From: Lactiplantibacillus xiangfangensis
GTDB taxonomy: Bacteria; Bacillota; Bacilli; Lactobacillales; Lactobacillaceae
Assembly (NCBI RefSeq): GCF_001438845.1
Contig: NZ_JQCL01000040.1
Span: 1 to 39,480, forward strand
DNA length: 39,480 nt
Reading direction: 5' to 3'
Part shown: positions 11,913-33,612 of the stretch, in pieces
Position numbering within the stretch: the first letter of the stretch is position 1
Layout: every line of letters begins with the position of its first letter
Program-made: the position numbers and the translations under genes
The notes under the pieces: generated by a model
Seen by the model: the letters and a program-made list of their open reading frames with translations, nothing else
What the model was told of the DNA's origin: nothing
Database searches by the model: none

Positions 11913-12752
11913 ATGCAACCCATTACATCTAAATTGGTCACACAGACAATCATTGAACGCCCCGCTGAATCCTATAAAGGAAACTACGGTCGCGTGCTCC
12001 TCATTGGAGGCAATCAAAACTTTGGCGGTGCCATTATCATGGCCGCTACCGCCGCTACTTATAGCGGTGCCGGACTAGTCACCGTGGCAACCGATCCCCA
12101 AAACTTCACTAGCCTGCACGCCCGTCTACCAGAAGCAATGGTCGTGGATTACCACCAGACAGATTACTTACTCGGTCTCGCCACTAATATGGACGTCATC
12201 GTGATTGGTCCTGGCCTTGGCACGGACCCTTTTGCTGAGCGGTTACTGACCGCCGTACTTAACGCGGTACACCAACCCCAGCGCTTAGTGATTGATGGCT
12301 CAGCGCTGACATTGCTCGCCGCACATCCCCAGCCGCTACCCGCAACGCCCATCGTTGTGACACCACACCAAATGGAATGGCAACGGCTATCCGGCCTAAA
12401 GATCAGTGAACAGACACCGACCGCTAACCACCAGGCCCAACAAAAGCTCGGCGTCATTGCGGTCGTTAAGGCCCATCACACGACCATTTACACGGATCAG
12501 CAAGTCTGGTTCAATCCCGGGGGTACTCCGGCCATGGCAACCGGCGGCATGGGTGACACCTTAGCCGGCATGATTGGTGGTTTCAGCGGTCAATTTACCG
12601 ATTTCACCAACGCCATTTTAAGCGCGGTGTACCTGCACAGTACGATTGCTGACGACTTAGCCGCCAGCCGTTACGTCGTCTTGCCCCATCAAATTAGTGC
12701 CTTAATTCCTAAGTACATGCATGATTTTAGTCAGGCAGAACTAGATGACTAA
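11913..12752 (+). CDS. nnrD: ADP-dependent NAD(P)H-hydrate dehydratase
   Basis: Repairs hydrated NADH/NADPH at the cost of ADP. It is a ribokinase-like (YjeF C-terminal, CarKD) enzyme of about 279 residues. The start has GNYGRVLLIGGNQNFGGA, the family's first motif. Then come DVIVIGPGLGTDP and LVIDGSALTLL, VVTPHQMEW, and near the end the anion-hole motif GGMGDTLAGMIGG. The N-terminal epimerase domain found in fused homologues is absent. I use ATG 11913, which follows GTTGGTGA; an in-frame TTG 18 nt upstream is less likely. TATACT near 11876 may be the -10. Confidence 0.95.
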   Translation: MQPITSKLVTQTIIERPAESYKGNYGRVLLIGGNQNFGGAIIMAATAATYSGAGLVTVATDPQNFTSLHARLPEAMVVDYHQTDYLLGLATNMDVIVIGPGLGTDPFAERLLTAVLNAVHQPQRLVIDGSALTLLAAHPQPLPATPIVVTPHQMEWQRLSGLKISEQTPTANHQAQQKLGVIAVVKAHHTTIYTDQQVWFNPGGTPAMATGGMGDTLAGMIGGFSGQFTDFTNAILSAVYLHSTIADDLAASRYVVLPHQISALIPKYMHDFSQAELDD

Positions 12753-12836
12753 GGGCTGAAAATCTAAATTAGCCTTAAATTTCATTGAAACATCTTTAAA
12801 ACTGATGGAGCTCAACCCTGACTACCTAGTCTGGCT

Positions 12837-12997
12837 GTCACTGATAACATGCGGTCGTGGAAACGGATTAAACTTGAGGAGCGGTCTCCCCCCTCGTCCG
12901 GAACAATTGCACAAACCACAATTGCTCCGGACATTCCATGGCGTAGGGCTGCATAAACCATCGTCCTAACGCCACCATCACGACCGATGCTATCACC
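12837..12997 (+). repeat. Structured intergenic repeat, family A, copy A1
   Basis: The left arm (12841-12859, with CTGATAACAT then GCGGTCGTG) is matched in inverted form on the right (12980-12996), with one G bulged, closing the element. Inside, GTCCGGA and TCCGGAC flank CAATTG repeats (12896-12931) as a strong hairpin, and GGCGTAGG/CCTAACGCC forms another (about 12940-12973). The same arm and hairpin recur at 16514, 21039 and partly 25357. It lies between the convergent genes nnrD and rsuA, next to B1. ORFs inside are by-products of the repeat. Confidence 0.7.
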
Positions 12998-13053
12998 AAC
13001 AATCTCAGCACATTCAATAAAACTGGATTCTTAACAAGAGATAACCCATATTT

Positions 13054-13226
13054 AGCGAAGGCGAGCAAAATCGGTGTGCTGTGACGGCAATATTAGCCGG
13101 CGTTTCTTAGCCGACTGATATTGCGGGGCGATTCAAAGACGTGGGTTGTCGGCTTTGAATTGAGAGACCAGACCGCACTTCGGCTGGGACCGTCCCCCAT
13201 AGCACACCGGTTTTGATCGACGAAGC
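13054..13226 (+). repeat. Structured intergenic repeat, family B, copy B1
   Basis: This 173-bp element starts AGCGAAG and ends CGAAGC. Its closing arms are 13060-13080 and 13201-13221 (21 positions, two mismatches and one TG). Inside are hairpin I (13087-13093 with 13118-13124), hairpin II (GATTCAAAG with CTTTGAATT, about 13130-13161) and a conserved AGACCGCA...GGCTG...GACCGTCCCCCATAGCAC end, whose C-run can pair with the GGGG at 13125-13128. Copies B2 and B3 keep the pairing with other bases. Confidence 0.8.
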
Positions 13227-13296
13227 GAGTTATTCAGAGATAATTGTTGCCGATAACTTTAAGTCTTTCGATCTTTAACCAACTATTAGAATCGTC

Positions 13297-13335
13297 AAAA
13301 AAACGTGATCTGGGAAAATTCTCAGATCACGTTTT
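13297..13335. terminator. Bidirectional terminator before rsuA
   Basis: AAACGTGATCTG (13301-13312) pairs with CAGATCACGTTT (13323-13334); A-runs and T-runs flank it on the two sides. It serves rsuA on the minus strand. Confidence 0.85.
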
Positions 13336-13341
13336 ATATAT

Positions 13342-14082
13342 TTATTCCGCTACGGGTTGATCCGCAGCCGTTTTTAACGCCACTAATTCATCGTCCGTTA
13401 AGGTCCGATAATTTCCAGCCAATAGGCCCACTGGTAACTCTAAGGAACCAAACTTAATGCGGCGTAATTGAACCACCCGTTCACCAAGGGTCCCAACCAT
13501 CCGTTTAACTTGATGGTATTTTCCTTCGTGAATCATGATTCGAATGGTCGTGAAGTCCTCAATTTCATGGAATTCCACGATTTCTGCTTGTGCCGGTTGT
13601 AACTGGGTCCCGTCTTTTAGCGTAATGCCATCGTTGAACCCAGCTACCTGATCTGCCGTAATCTCACCGGTGACTTCAGCCTCGTACACCTTAGTCACGT
13701 GGTGTGCTGGCGCTAATAACGCGTGCGACAACGCCCCATCATTAGTAATCACGAGCACACCTTCCGTATCCTTATCTAAGCGCCCCACCGGAAACAAGTC
13801 GTCCCGATAATCGGTCGCATTGAAAAGGTCCATGACCGTTTTAGCCGTCGCATCACTCGTCGCTGTGATCACGCCGACTGGTTTATTCATCACGTAATAA
13901 AAATACTGTTGGTAGCGAACCTGCTCATCGTCTAAAAATACGGCGTCACTACCAGGATTGATCTGTTGCTTACCAGAAATCACTGGCTCGCCATTAGTCA
14001 TAATATGACCGTCTTTGATCAACCGGCGCACCTGCGTTCTGGTCCCAATCCGCATGGCGTGTAAAAATTTATCAACTCGCAT
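13342..14082 (-). CDS. rsuA: rRNA pseudouridine synthase, RsuA/RluB family
   Basis: Converts a specific uridine in ribosomal RNA to pseudouridine. The 246-residue protein has an N-terminal S4 RNA-binding domain (MRVDKFLHAMRIGTRTQVRRLIKDG) and then the catalytic domain with YYVMNKPVGVITATSD and the signature GRLDKDTEGVLVITNDG, whose Asp is the catalytic residue. HEGKYHQVKRM is the second family motif. The target (16S or 23S) cannot be read from sequence; the RsuA name follows length and Gram-positive synteny with ytgP, known in Bacillus. It starts 8 nt after the ytgP stop, so the two are cotranscribed. Confidence 0.92.
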   Translation of the reverse strand: MRVDKFLHAMRIGTRTQVRRLIKDGHIMTNGEPVISGKQQINPGSDAVFLDDEQVRYQQYFYYVMNKPVGVITATSDATAKTVMDLFNATDYRDDLFPVGRLDKDTEGVLVITNDGALSHALLAPAHHVTKVYEAEVTGEITADQVAGFNDGITLKDGTQLQPAQAEIVEFHEIEDFTTIRIMIHEGKYHQVKRMVGTLGERVVQLRRIKFGSLELPVGLLAGNYRTLTDDELVALKTAADQPVAE

Positions 14083-16400: not shown

Positions 16401-16513
16401 ATACTTAAAGTTCCAAAATCGTCGTCATATCAAAGGTTAACGATTAAAAATTAAGATTCTTCATCGCTCCGCCGGACAGAATAATCTTACTATTGTTATT
16501 TCCATCAGATAAT

Positions 16514-16693
16514 CGGAGGCCGCAACTGATGACATCGGTCGTGAAGGTGGTGTTGGCGCGGCGCCTTTTTGCCGGGCTTACACCACGGACGGTCCGGGAC
16601 AATTGCGTCCTTTGCAAGTGTTCCGGGCGAGGGACTAGACCGCTCCCCAGGCTAGTACCGGTCCCACGACCGCATGTCATCAGTTGCGACCGG
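16514..16693 (-). repeat. Structured intergenic repeat, family A, copy A2
   Basis: The two ends form a long inverted repeat: CCGCAACTGATGACAT then CGGTCGTG (16520-16543) matches the right arm 16665-16688 with one bulged G. Inside, GTGGTGT/ACACCAC encloses CGGC/GCCG (about 16547-16589), and CGGGACAATTGC pairs with GCAAGTGTTCCG. Beyond the left end, GCTCCGCCGGACAGAA (16466-16481) resembles the B-family end. The element lies between the convergent immunity gene and leuS. The apparent ORFs on both strands come from the repeat. Confidence 0.75.
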
Positions 16694-16780
16694 AATAGCT
16701 TTTATACCAACAAAAATCCCCGCTAAATCATCAGCTGAACTGGTAATTTGGTGGGGATTCATTATTTTTAATTGCGTGTA

Positions 16781-19291: not shown

Positions 19292-19535
19292 AAAAAAACG
19301 CCCTATCAGCCACTTAAGCTTATAGGACGAAAATGATTCCGCGGTACCACCTATGATTCCACGTTGCCGTGGCCTCTTGATTTTCTTAACGCGAAACCAC
19401 GTCCGTACCTACTATTGCTTTCAGTCGGAAGACTCGAAGGTGAGTTCAGTCAGTGTGAATCCCCGTTTGCAACGACCACGGGGTTTCTGCAAAACACACC
19501 AACTTACTAATCCTTCTCGGAGTCGTAAAGTTATT
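19292..19535 (-). ncRNA. T-box leader of leuS (leucine, CUC specifier)
   Basis: A tRNA-sensing riboswitch: uncharged tRNA-Leu stabilises an antiterminator and allows leuS transcription. The T-box AGGTGGTACCGCG is exact on the minus strand (19340-19352). The specifier loop reads GAACTCACC (19439-19447), giving codon CUC (19442-19444), which is leucine and fits the gene. The terminator pairs 19322-19329 with 19299-19306 and ends in seven Ts at 19292-19298. Stem I, with CCCCGTGGTCGT... arms, fills 19450-19500. Confidence 0.95.
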
Positions 19536-20978: not shown

Positions 20979-21038
20979 GTACTAAAGATTGAAAAGTCAA
21001 AAAATTTTAATAACCTGATAATCATACTTAAAGCAGCC

Positions 21039-21178
21039 GCTTCGTCAGACAGAACCGGTGTGCTAGGGGGGACGGTTCGGGACAATTGCGCATTTTGCAA
21101 GTGTTCCGGGCGAGGGGCTAGACCGCTCCACAGGCTAGACCCGGTCCCACGACCGCATGTCATCAGCGCCAACCGGAA
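21039..21178 (-). repeat. Structured intergenic repeat, chimeric A/B copy A3
   Basis: Read on the minus strand, the start (TGATGACATGCGGTCGTGG, from about 21167 down to 21149) and the CGGAACACTTGC hairpin are family A. The end (CCGTCCCCCCTAGCACACCGG, then GACGAAGC, about 21073 down to 21039) is family B. The A-type right arm is therefore missing. It lies between convergent mnmM and the MFS gene. The 66-residue ORF here is homologous to the one in A2 only because the repeat is shared. Confidence 0.7.
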
Positions 21179-22912: not shown

Positions 22913-24103
22913 TTATTTATTAAATTCAGCTTTTAAGGCGTCAACCTTATCCGTGTGTTCCCACGGTAAGTCAATGTCAGTCCGACCAAAGTGACCGTAA
23001 GCAGCCGTTTGGCGATAAATTGGCCGTTGTAAGTCCAACATCTTGATGATCCCAGCTGGACGTAGGTCAAAGTGCTTCCGGATGGCACCAATTAAGGCAT
23101 CATCACTGACTTTCCCAGTACCGGCCGTATCAACGGCGATTGAAACGGGTTGTGCCACCCCAATCGCGTAGGCTAATTGAACTTCAACCTGGTCAGCTAA
23201 ACCAGCCGCAACGATGTTTTTTGCAATGTAGCGGGCGGCGTAACTAGCTGAACGGTCAACCTTAGTGGCATCCTTACCAGAAAAGGCCCCACCACCATGA
23301 TGGGCAAAACCACCGTAAGTATCCACGATGATCTTCCGACCCGTTAAACCAGCATCCCCTTGAGGACCACCGATAACGAAGCGGCCAGTTGGATTAACCA
23401 AATAACGCGTCTGATCATCTAACAAGTCCTTAGGCAACACGGCCTTGATGACTTGGTCAATGACCGTTTGGCGAATTTCATCCAGTTCAACATCGGGGTC
23501 GTGCTGCGTCGATAAGACGACGGTGTCGATCCGTTGTGGCTGGTTTTGTTCGTCATATTCCACCGTAACTTGGGCCTTGGCGTCCGGACGCAACCACTTG
23601 ATGGTGCCGTTCTTCCGCAATTCCGCAATTTTACGCATTAAGCGGTGGCTCAATGCGATTGGTAGTGGCATTAGTTCAGGAGTTTCGTTAATGGCATAGC
23701 CAAACATCATCCCCTGGTCCCCAGCACCAATTTGGTCCAGTGGGTCAGCATCACCCGTACGCGTTTCCAAAGAGTCGTCGACCCCTTGCGCGATATCCGG
23801 TGATTGTTCATCCAAAGAAACGAGGACGGCACAGTTATCACCGTCAAAGCCGTATTGGCCATCAACGTAGCCAATCGACTTGATCGTGTCACGCACGACC
23901 TTTTGAATATCAACGTAGGCCTTGGTTGAAACTTCACCAAAGACCAGCACTAACCCAGTAGTCACTGAAGTTTCAACGGCTACCCGTGCTTGTGGGTCTT
24001 GTTCCAACATTGCATCTAGGATGGCGTCACTGATTTGATCCGCGATTTTATCGGGATGGCCTTCAGAAACGGATTCCGATGTAAATAAATGTCTTTCACT
24101 CAT
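22913..24103 (-). CDS. metK: S-adenosylmethionine synthetase
   Basis: Makes SAM from methionine and ATP. Its 396 residues match the family. Conserved parts are [21 protein letters not shown] (ATP site), the [12 protein letters not shown] hexapeptide signature, GGGAFSGKD (second signature) and HFGR near the end. It is cytoplasmic and forms tetramers. ATG is preceded by the GGGGGAA ribosome-binding site, which is part of an S(MK) riboswitch, so SAM shuts its own synthesis at translation. Confidence 0.98.
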
Positions 24104-24107
24104 TGTA

Positions 24108-24197
24108 AATTCCCCCTTGATTAGTTCGGTTACAAGGCATCTAAGTCCGTTTAAATGGCTTCCAAATAAACAGACTTATCCTTTCGGGAACGGCTCA
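24108..24197 (-). ncRNA. S(MK)-box (SAM-III) riboswitch of metK
   Basis: On the minus strand the leader contains TTCCCGAAAGGA (about 24179-24190), AGATGCCTTGTAACCGAA (about 24126-24143) and AAGGGGG (24112-24118): the conserved core of the S(MK) box known from metK of Enterococcus, Streptococcus and Lactobacillus. SAM binding pairs the Shine-Dalgarno with the upstream anti-SD and blocks translation. A candidate extended -10, TGATATAGT, lies just before it (about 24201-24209). The sequence match is strong; no binding test is implied. Confidence 0.92.
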
Positions 24198-24315
24198 TAA
24201 CTATATCAGACTATCACAATCCTTGTTTTTTTAAAAGAATCTTCCTAAAATATTGACGGTTTTAACGGTGACCGTTAGGATTAAAACATTACTTCTATTA
24301 GAAAGATGTTGAGCT

Positions 24316-25090: not shown

Positions 25091-25128
25091 AAATAGCTGA
25101 TGTGCCAATATCTAGACTGATCTAAATT

Positions 25129-25300
25129 AGCGAAGGCGGACAGAATTGATGTGCTGTGTCGGCAACGGTAGCCGATGATTTTTGTCGACTACCGTTGCGG
25201 GGCGATTCAAAGACGTGGGTTGGCGGCTTTGAATCGAGGTTGCAGACCGCACTTCGGCTGCGACCGTCCCCCATAGCACATCAGTTCTGTCCGCCGAAGC
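25129..25300 (+). repeat. Structured intergenic repeat, family B, copy B2
   Basis: This 172-bp element has closing arms 25135-25155 and 25275-25295, which pair over all 21 positions with a single T-G at position 12. Hairpin I is GCAACGGTAG (25162-25171) with CTACCGTTGC (25189-25198). Hairpin II is GATTCAAAG (25204-25212) with CTTTGAATC (25227-25235). A third is GTTGCAG/CTGCGAC (about 25239-25264). Boundaries are the same as in B1 and B3. It lies between a plus-strand gene and mmuM. Confidence 0.85.
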
Positions 25301-25356
25301 GCTGAAAATTGTCATTGATTCGAAAAGATATTGAGCCATCTAAGGTCGTTAAGGTC

Positions 25357-25414
25357 AAGACGCTTCTCAGGCTTGGCCCGGTCCCACGACCGCATGCTAT
25401 CAGTGGCAACCGGA
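25357..25414 (-). repeat. Partial family A repeat, copy A4
   Basis: Only one end is present: CTTCTCAGGCTTGGCCCGG, then TCCCACGACCGCATG, then CTATCAGTGGCAACCGG, matching the ends of A2 and A3 closely. It lies about 57 bp after B2 and reaches to 5 bp from the mmuM stop. Confidence 0.65.
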
Positions 25415-25418
25415 CTTA

Positions 25419-33246: not shown

Positions 33247-33366
33247 TTATGCTCTAACAATTGAAATATCAATTTTGGATTTGAATGTTATTGGCCTAAT
33301 GCTTGAACTAATCTAGTCCGATGGTTTAATGAATTTTTGAGCCATCACATTAGTAGATCTAATTTT

Positions 33367-33538
33367 AGCGAAGTCGGACAGTCTGGTTGTGCTGTGTCGG
33401 CAAGATTAGCGGGCGGTTCTCAGCCGCTTATCTTGCGGGGCGATTCCAAGACGCGGGTTATCGGCTCGGAATCGAGGCCACAGACCGCAGTGTGGCTGGG
33501 ACCGTCCCCCATAGCACAACCGGACTGTCCGACGAAGC
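33367..33538 (+). repeat. Structured intergenic repeat, family B, copy B3
   Basis: This 172-bp element has closing arms 33373-33393 and 33513-33533, which pair over 21 positions with the same single T-G at position 12 as B2. Hairpin I pairs GCAAGAT (33400-33406) with ATCTTGC (33430-33436) and AGCGG with CCGCT. Hairpin II is GATTCC..AG with CT..GGAATC. Five arm positions differ from B2, each with the matching change opposite. It lies between the convergent GNAT and ASCH genes. Confidence 0.85.
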
Positions 33539-33612
33539 AAATATTTTATGAATAACTATGGCATTGACGTTAATCTTAGGCACATTAAATGTTGCGACCG
33601 TCCTTGATTTTA

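Follow-up and report, generated by a model that had tools for sequence, protein, structure and literature searches.

A 172 bp intergenic repeat of Lactiplantibacillus xiangfangensis, at positions 25129–25300 of the 39,480-nucleotide stretch of DNA that we analyzed (the window), is one copy of an elaborately folded module, module B, and covariation among its copies strongly supports the conclusion that selection acts on the fold. We consider it fairly probable that the whole of our account is correct, namely that the module is folded, that it is carried by MITE-like elements, and that it would act as RNA, the last of these being drawn from comparison of sequences.

The window holds three copies of module B (B1, B2, and B3). 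Rereading the sequence at 13054, 25129, and 33367 confirmed that they are 173, 172, and 172 bp long, as originally predicted, and that all of them start with AGCGAAG and end with CGAAGC. In ungapped comparison, B1 is 65% and B3 77% identical to B2. The copies had been taken for a free 172 bp family; they are real, but B often stands head-to-head with a second module, A, and many copies lie inside MITE-like elements, which have inverted repeats at their ends and duplicated target sites. The features of the window are as follows.

25129–25300, plus strand: B2, module B, 172 bp; covariance-model match 25125–25308
25136–25149, plus strand: 5′ arm of P1, the closing stem of B2, with the 3′ arm at approximately 25280–25294; consensus structure, hand-converted from alignment columns
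25162–25198, plus strand: P2 side hairpin of B2 (hairpin I of the original prediction); consensus structure, hand-converted
25199–25271, plus strand: P5 branch of B2, enclosing hairpins P3 and P4; consensus structure, hand-converted
25203–25236, plus strand: P3 hairpin of B2 (hairpin II), with conserved AAAGACGTGGG..CGGCTTT; alignment and consensus structure, hand-converted
25238–25265, plus strand: P4 hairpin of B2, with conserved CAGACCG..GGCTG; alignment and consensus structure, hand-converted
25361–25416, plus strand: module A fragment downstream of B2; repeat families D3 and I3, no match to model R3
13054–13226, plus strand: B1, module B, 173 bp; model match 13050–13234
12823–13013, minus strand: module A, head-to-head partner of B1; 78.3 bits, 36 bp between the model matches, aligned as row B029
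12749–12762, plus strand: left terminal inverted repeat of the A+B1 element, degenerate; 3 mismatches
13265–13278, minus strand: right terminal inverted repeat of the A+B1 element, degenerate; 2 mismatches, no exact target duplication
33367–33538, plus strand: B3, module B, 172 bp; model match 33363–33546
33254: doubtful left end upstream of B3; 3 mismatches, nothing else upstream
16507–16704, plus strand: module A, alone; 115.3 bits
21069–21182, plus strand: truncated module, apparently a B end fused to an A end; model match 21069–21148 only
20982–20995, plus strand: terminal inverted repeat beside the truncated module; 1 mismatch

Two other structured RNAs in the window scored above their Rfam thresholds: a T-box leader (19320–19529, minus strand) and a SAM-III (SMK box) riboswitch ahead of metK (24101–24205, minus strand). 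Judged by eye, the MetK protein is approximately 94–95% identical to PDB 7r3b, which most likely places the host in Lactiplantibacillus.

In the consensus structure, module B spans approximately 175 nt: stem P1 closes the fold, P2 is a hairpin at its side, and P5 is an inner branch that carries two further hairpins (P3 and P4). Five differences between the closing stems of B2 and B3 had been described as compensated, and direct comparison of the arms showed that each is matched on the opposite arm; the position numbers assigned to them (2, 10, 11, 13, and 15) fit a count begun one base before the first varying pair. Hairpins I and II were likewise found to change in sequence and keep their pairing in the consensus structure of 30 copies from the L. 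xiangfangensis genome. In these 30 copies, aligned on sequence only with MAFFT, 34 of the 62 helix pairs had two-sided changes. With 59 diverse sequences (the types found in this genome, relatives within the genus, and one other genus), in an alignment that was fitted to the model structure and is thus biased in its favor, 56 of the 62 pairs had changed on both sides, 94.5% of cells paired, and the covariation score was 0.604, compared with 0.186 for the shuffled control and at most 0.091 when pairing partners were slid. For 87 sequences, drawn from several genera and including two loci from beyond the family, in an alignment that was fitted with the same bias and has two rows that are opposite-strand shadows, the corresponding values were 59 of 62 pairs and a score of 0.708, compared with 0.191 and at most 0.103.

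We assessed the significance of individual pairs with a home-made tree-based null in the style of R-scape, in which substitutions are re-dealt on a FastTree tree. Values of E < 0.05 were obtained for 34 of the 62 pairs and for none of 16,409 off-structure pairs in the 59-sequence set, and for only 13 of the 62 pairs and none of 16,228 off-structure pairs in the unfitted 30-copy set. The original prediction, which had called for covariation across many copies, went as far as selection on structure rather than sequence. The first half of that statement is strongly supported; the second is not, as 49 of 184 positions, loop and junction bases included, are invariant among the 30 copies, and the sequence is therefore selected too. 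Assembly or masking fails in two copies, whose modules are interrupted by stretches of N (G000 C53:225276–225453 and C35:7953–8150).

Module A (approximately 200 bp) is a homologue of B that lies on the opposite strand beside 25 of the B copies in this genome, a set of blocks that was selected for a conserved upstream block and hence because its members carry module A. It has the same architecture as B, and it resembles a fourth type of B that was itself found by the B model. Of 20 loci from other genera, 9 had an opposite-strand neighbor within 250 bp, and all 9 of these pairs were head-to-head. A scan for promoters across 12700–13350 yielded 2 promoter-like sites, compared with 0.9 expected, none of which falls in the spacer between A and B.

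The unequal tolerance of the helices for G·U and A·C indicates which strand folds. Paired cells in module B included 125 G·U and 21 A·C, approximately six to one; the counts were 185 and 48 in the diverse set, and 116 and 35 in 23 A modules read outward, which were picked for the strand test because module A was present. Because a double-stranded palindrome would tolerate G·U and A·C equally, we conclude that one strand folds and that it runs outward in each module, so that the folding strand leaves the middle of an A-B pair outward in both. Consensus energies were −88.9 for B, compared with −71.3 on the other strand, and −99.0 for A, compared with −74.5 on the other strand. The excess of G·U fits RNA and single-stranded DNA alike. 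It also bears on the idea that the repeats are ordinary imperfect palindromes, kept by DNA-level hairpin correction or gene conversion with no functional selection. Closely similar cores with different flanks do occur among the copies (B002 and its best match, 95%), as this idea would have it, but templated correction would not yield such an excess, and what is kept across genera is a multi-branched fold whose loops and junctions include invariant bases; we regard this explanation as very improbable.

We then considered how the modules are distributed in the 2.99 Mb genome, in which 40 matches were scored by blast. A covariance model built from the 30 copies (R1) gave 119 matches at E ≤ 0.01, and when eight opposite-strand overlaps were dropped, 111 places remained, fragments included. 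The copies belong to at least four sequence types. According to a simple ORF caller, and with neighboring copies counted separately, the 111 places comprise 55 convergent gaps, 45 co-directional gaps (22 with the copy in sense and 23 in antisense orientation), 6 divergent gaps, and 5 that could not be assigned. Such a distribution is in keeping with promoters being avoided, and it speaks against a leader that serves particular genes. No recurrent neighbor protein beyond ordinary paralogues was found within 1.5 kb of the copies, and so the element has no coding capacity of its own; the one large cluster of ORFs near copies is the repeat itself read through. A riboswitch-like cis-regulatory leader of the neighboring genes would be compatible with the compact conserved fold and with the position of the streptococcal copies described below, which lie directly before purE. 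With neighbors that do not recur, sense and antisense copies in nearly equal number, and half of the places in convergent gaps, we see hardly any prospect that this is the explanation.

The preference for convergent gaps could instead be taken to reflect a bidirectional 3′-end element, a terminator or stabilizer useful to the host and selected at gene ends in the manner of REP or BIME. However, an insertion of any kind is least harmful in a convergent gap. The B1 and B2 gaps have ordinary terminators separate from the repeats, and the aligned copies have no T-run after the core. Turnover is also fast: in genome G012, which shows 91–92% identity in two proteins, R1 found no match under strict filters, and the gap that holds B2 has no insertion. 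A host 3′-end element is thus improbable, and we return to mobile elements as the carriers of the module.

Outside the modules, the L. xiangfangensis genome has conserved inverted ends, CTAAAGRTTGAAAG and its complement. With up to one mismatch allowed, the genome has 73 occurrences of this end motif and one of a reversed control; in its exact form, the motif is present in 12 of 21 genomes of the genus and the control in none. Among 33 end pairs in stretches of the L. xiangfangensis genome, a few of which share an end, 13 have exact target duplications of 7–8 bp; in 500 mis-pairings of the ends, the mean was 0.5 and the largest value 2. The end-bounded forms include A+B, B only, and A only, with one A-only element having its own duplication, and each of the larger end-bounded elements that we examined holds at least part of a module. 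The CTAAAGRTTGAAAG inverted repeats, together with exact target duplications in a good part of the copies, make these elements MITE-like. One clean absent site, that of B001, was found in the near relative G004, where TTATTTAG stands once; in the L. xiangfangensis genome, the left copy of this duplication has two mismatches. B040 and the B1 copy of the window were also considered as empty sites in G004 and rejected, since remnants there indicate deletions in G004.

B2 itself has no recognizable terminal repeat, and B3 has at most the doubtful left end listed above. The G004 copy in the B2 gap does have a left terminal repeat, and the gap is free of insertion in G012, the more distant of the two genomes. 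In the gap that holds B3 (L247), G004 has a differently oriented A/B insertion (L248).

A possible source of the transposition activity was found in G008, a genome of the same genus. A 1565 bp element with the same ends (L194, 535–2099) encodes a 451-residue transposase that scores 481.6 bits against the IS4 model NF049925 (cut-off 250). This IS4-family insertion sequence shares its 14 bp ends with the repeats, and 18 bp of its left end are identical to B019 of the L. xiangfangensis genome; it differs in having the transposase and no module, whereas the repeats have modules and no recurrent gene. No inward-facing pair of ends 1–3 kb apart was found at up to one mismatch in the L. xiangfangensis genome, although some of its contigs stop near copies. 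Across 52 loci of relatives and other genera, end-motif matches were as frequent as in the reversed control (11 and 10, respectively), so the link to MITEs holds only within the genus and, outside it, at a single locus (L212), which has clear ends and a TTACTAC duplication. Within the genus, L065 is a probable end-bounded case. A second end motif in genus g16 (GCCGCCTTACCGTTCGC) proved to be the end of module A and not a separate terminal repeat.

Two further observations concern the ends. Many contigs of G008 and G018 begin or stop beside the end motif (e.g., G018 C7:16–29 and G008 C20:64–77), possibly because near-identical copies split the assembly, and this may reflect recent activity. At L274:421–460 (G000 C15), a 40 bp pair of facing ends stands with no module between them, perhaps as a relic of a deleted element.

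Folded single strands of DNA are recognized at attC sites and at the ends of IS200/IS605 elements. The fold of module B might accordingly be needed as single-stranded DNA, with a transposase, a recombinase, or the replication fork reading the folded strand and RNA playing no part. The elements are mobile, as the target duplications and the absence of B001 from G004 attest; a surplus of G·U relative to A·C would be equally expected of one folded DNA strand; and the larger end-bounded elements that we examined retain a module in whole or in part. However, a folded strand is not normally required by transposition of the cut-and-paste kind, to which the ends, the target duplications, and the IS4-type transposase point. 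Moreover, the 1565 bp insertion sequence has the same ends and no module. We judge this alternative unlikely, while giving it real weight beside a fold that acts as RNA.

The module is found well beyond this genus. R1 matched 17 of 60 genomes (the L. xiangfangensis genome, 15 of the 20 further genomes of its genus, and one from a different genus). In the family, a second model, R2, matched 75 of 301 genomes, which belong to 12 of the 40 genera sampled; in the order, it matched 22 of 395 genomes, three of which are outside the family, and among 398 genomes of the phylum, it matched the L. xiangfangensis genome alone. A third model, R3, which was built with two loci from outside the Lactobacillaceae and two opposite-strand shadows, matched 53 of 395 genomes of the order in 18 of 80 genera; 28 of these genomes are outside the family, many with weak matches (up to E = 1e-3) that are less certain than those of R2. 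Copy counts from scans of more than 40 genomes are lower bounds, as filters were stricter and no more than 44, 8, or 6 candidates per genome were scored. A scan of contigs from named genomes returned 27 matching stretches, all from one uncultured Lactobacillus MAG. Neither B2 nor the streptococcal relative had a blastn match in the plasmid and phage collections, and of four pattern matches in viral contigs, none fits R2 at E ≤ 1. Among the loci from relatives, L074 has five weak module matches within 1.4 kb (586–1971), split three to two between the strands, and a purine riboswitch aptamer above its Rfam threshold (L068:60–158, minus strand, 73.2 bits) lies within 1.5 kb of a module.

Although R2 was built without streptococcal loci, it matched one streptococcal genome at E = 8.8e-14. 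At six loci (L305, L306, L307, L311, L313, and L314), the gap between purD and purE holds a single module, which is in sense orientation and just before purE. The genus Streptococcus and both genes were recognized by eye, PurE from the letters after the module and the frames of L292; a scripted test for the PurE motif was negative at all loci because it examined the longest frame (PurK-like). Five of the six copies have the modeled fold, and L314 differs in P4. The streptococcal loci and one further locus match the Rfam family RF02616 (SSRC8_2) at 24.9–39.8 bits, below its threshold of 72 bits, and the match covers hairpins P3 and P4 and, in L294, the enclosing helix as well. L314 also has a second partial match to RF02616 upstream of the module. 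SSRC8, the type RNA of the family, was observed on Northern blots in S. pyogenes, with its ends mapped by RACE (PMC3675131). RF02616 thus shares a P3-P4 core fold with the streptococcal relatives, and with those relatives only; it is a 281-position model of a single-locus sRNA, whereas the modules in the L. xiangfangensis genome are multicopy. The streptococcal copies and the transcribed SSRC8 are the best hint that the fold may act as RNA, and single sense-strand copies in an operon gap, related to an RNA that is transcribed, also count against a fold needed only as single-stranded DNA.

Rfam has no match for the copies in the window, and B2 has none to RF02616 at E ≤ 10; a match of B2 to RF01691 (Bacillus-plasmid; 17.3 bits, E = 0.2) was taken as chance. 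The outcomes that the original prediction had named as contrary to it were a lack of significant covariation and a family already held by Rfam. Neither was found, since selection on the fold is supported (with our own null, not R-scape itself) and Rfam is without the window copies. Its further statement that no described element is like this one needs to be narrowed: it stands as regards Rfam and the window copies, but comparable kinds have been described in BOX and the bcr repeats, and distant streptococcal relatives match RF02616 below threshold. Our literature search, which reached few subscription papers, found no description of the element.

The BOX elements of Streptococcus pneumoniae are described as having terminal repeats and target duplications, with a fold predicted for the transcript and an insertion sequence proposed as their source (PMC3049150). 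With approximately 100 or more intergenic copies and a modular makeup, BOX resembles the present element in all of these respects; compared by description only, the present element differs in its multi-branched fold, its two homologous outward-facing modules, and strong covariation over many genera. The bcr1–bcr18 repeats of the Bacillus cereus group are high-copy interspersed repeats that are partly MITE-like, some with conserved structure, and copies were found in transcripts (84 of 165 and 62 of 155) (PMC3446304, PMC6542083). They resemble the present element in their high copy number, in being partly MITE-like, and in having conserved structure, but they are reported to occur in the B. cereus group only and to be linked to a TTTAT motif, whereas the element here has other ends and another range (PMC3446304, PMC6542083). 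By analogy, the element appears to work like BOX and bcr and yet to be separate and more elaborate, a new variant among the structured bacterial MITEs.

We propose that module B folds as a single strand, with P1, P2, and the P5 branch bearing P3 and P4; that an IS4-type transposase or a relative would move the elements in trans; and that the fold would act as RNA once a transcript leaves the element. With the two modules facing outward, a transcript that crosses the element from either side would meet one correctly oriented module last. The fold might shield the neighbors from read-through, or process or stabilize the end of the transcript, and insertions in gaps behind genes would thereby be tolerated; that this is the benefit of the fold is a guess, and a rather doubtful one. 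Tentatively, and with less than even confidence, we suggest that the modules belong to an uncatalogued Lactobacillales RNA superfamily, in which an ancient single-copy fold (streptococcal purD-purE) was captured and amplified by transposon-like elements of the Lactobacillaceae, often as two outward-facing copies, with survival of the element depending on the RNA fold.

The RNA catalogue lacks this elaborate, selected fold, which occupies about a hundred places in one genome and recurs among food and fermentation bacteria in a dozen of the genera sampled. With covariance models, a strand test, and an insertion sequence that has matching ends, the element can be approached in harmless laboratory strains, and the streptococcal copy between purD and purE is a single-copy version suited to work on function. 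If the fold acts as RNA, the element would make it possible to test directly why structured RNA is carried by small mobile elements of bacteria, a question that is open for BOX and bcr. If an RNA fold was indeed captured, the fitness of this mobile element would lie with a structured RNA that is present in both orientations.
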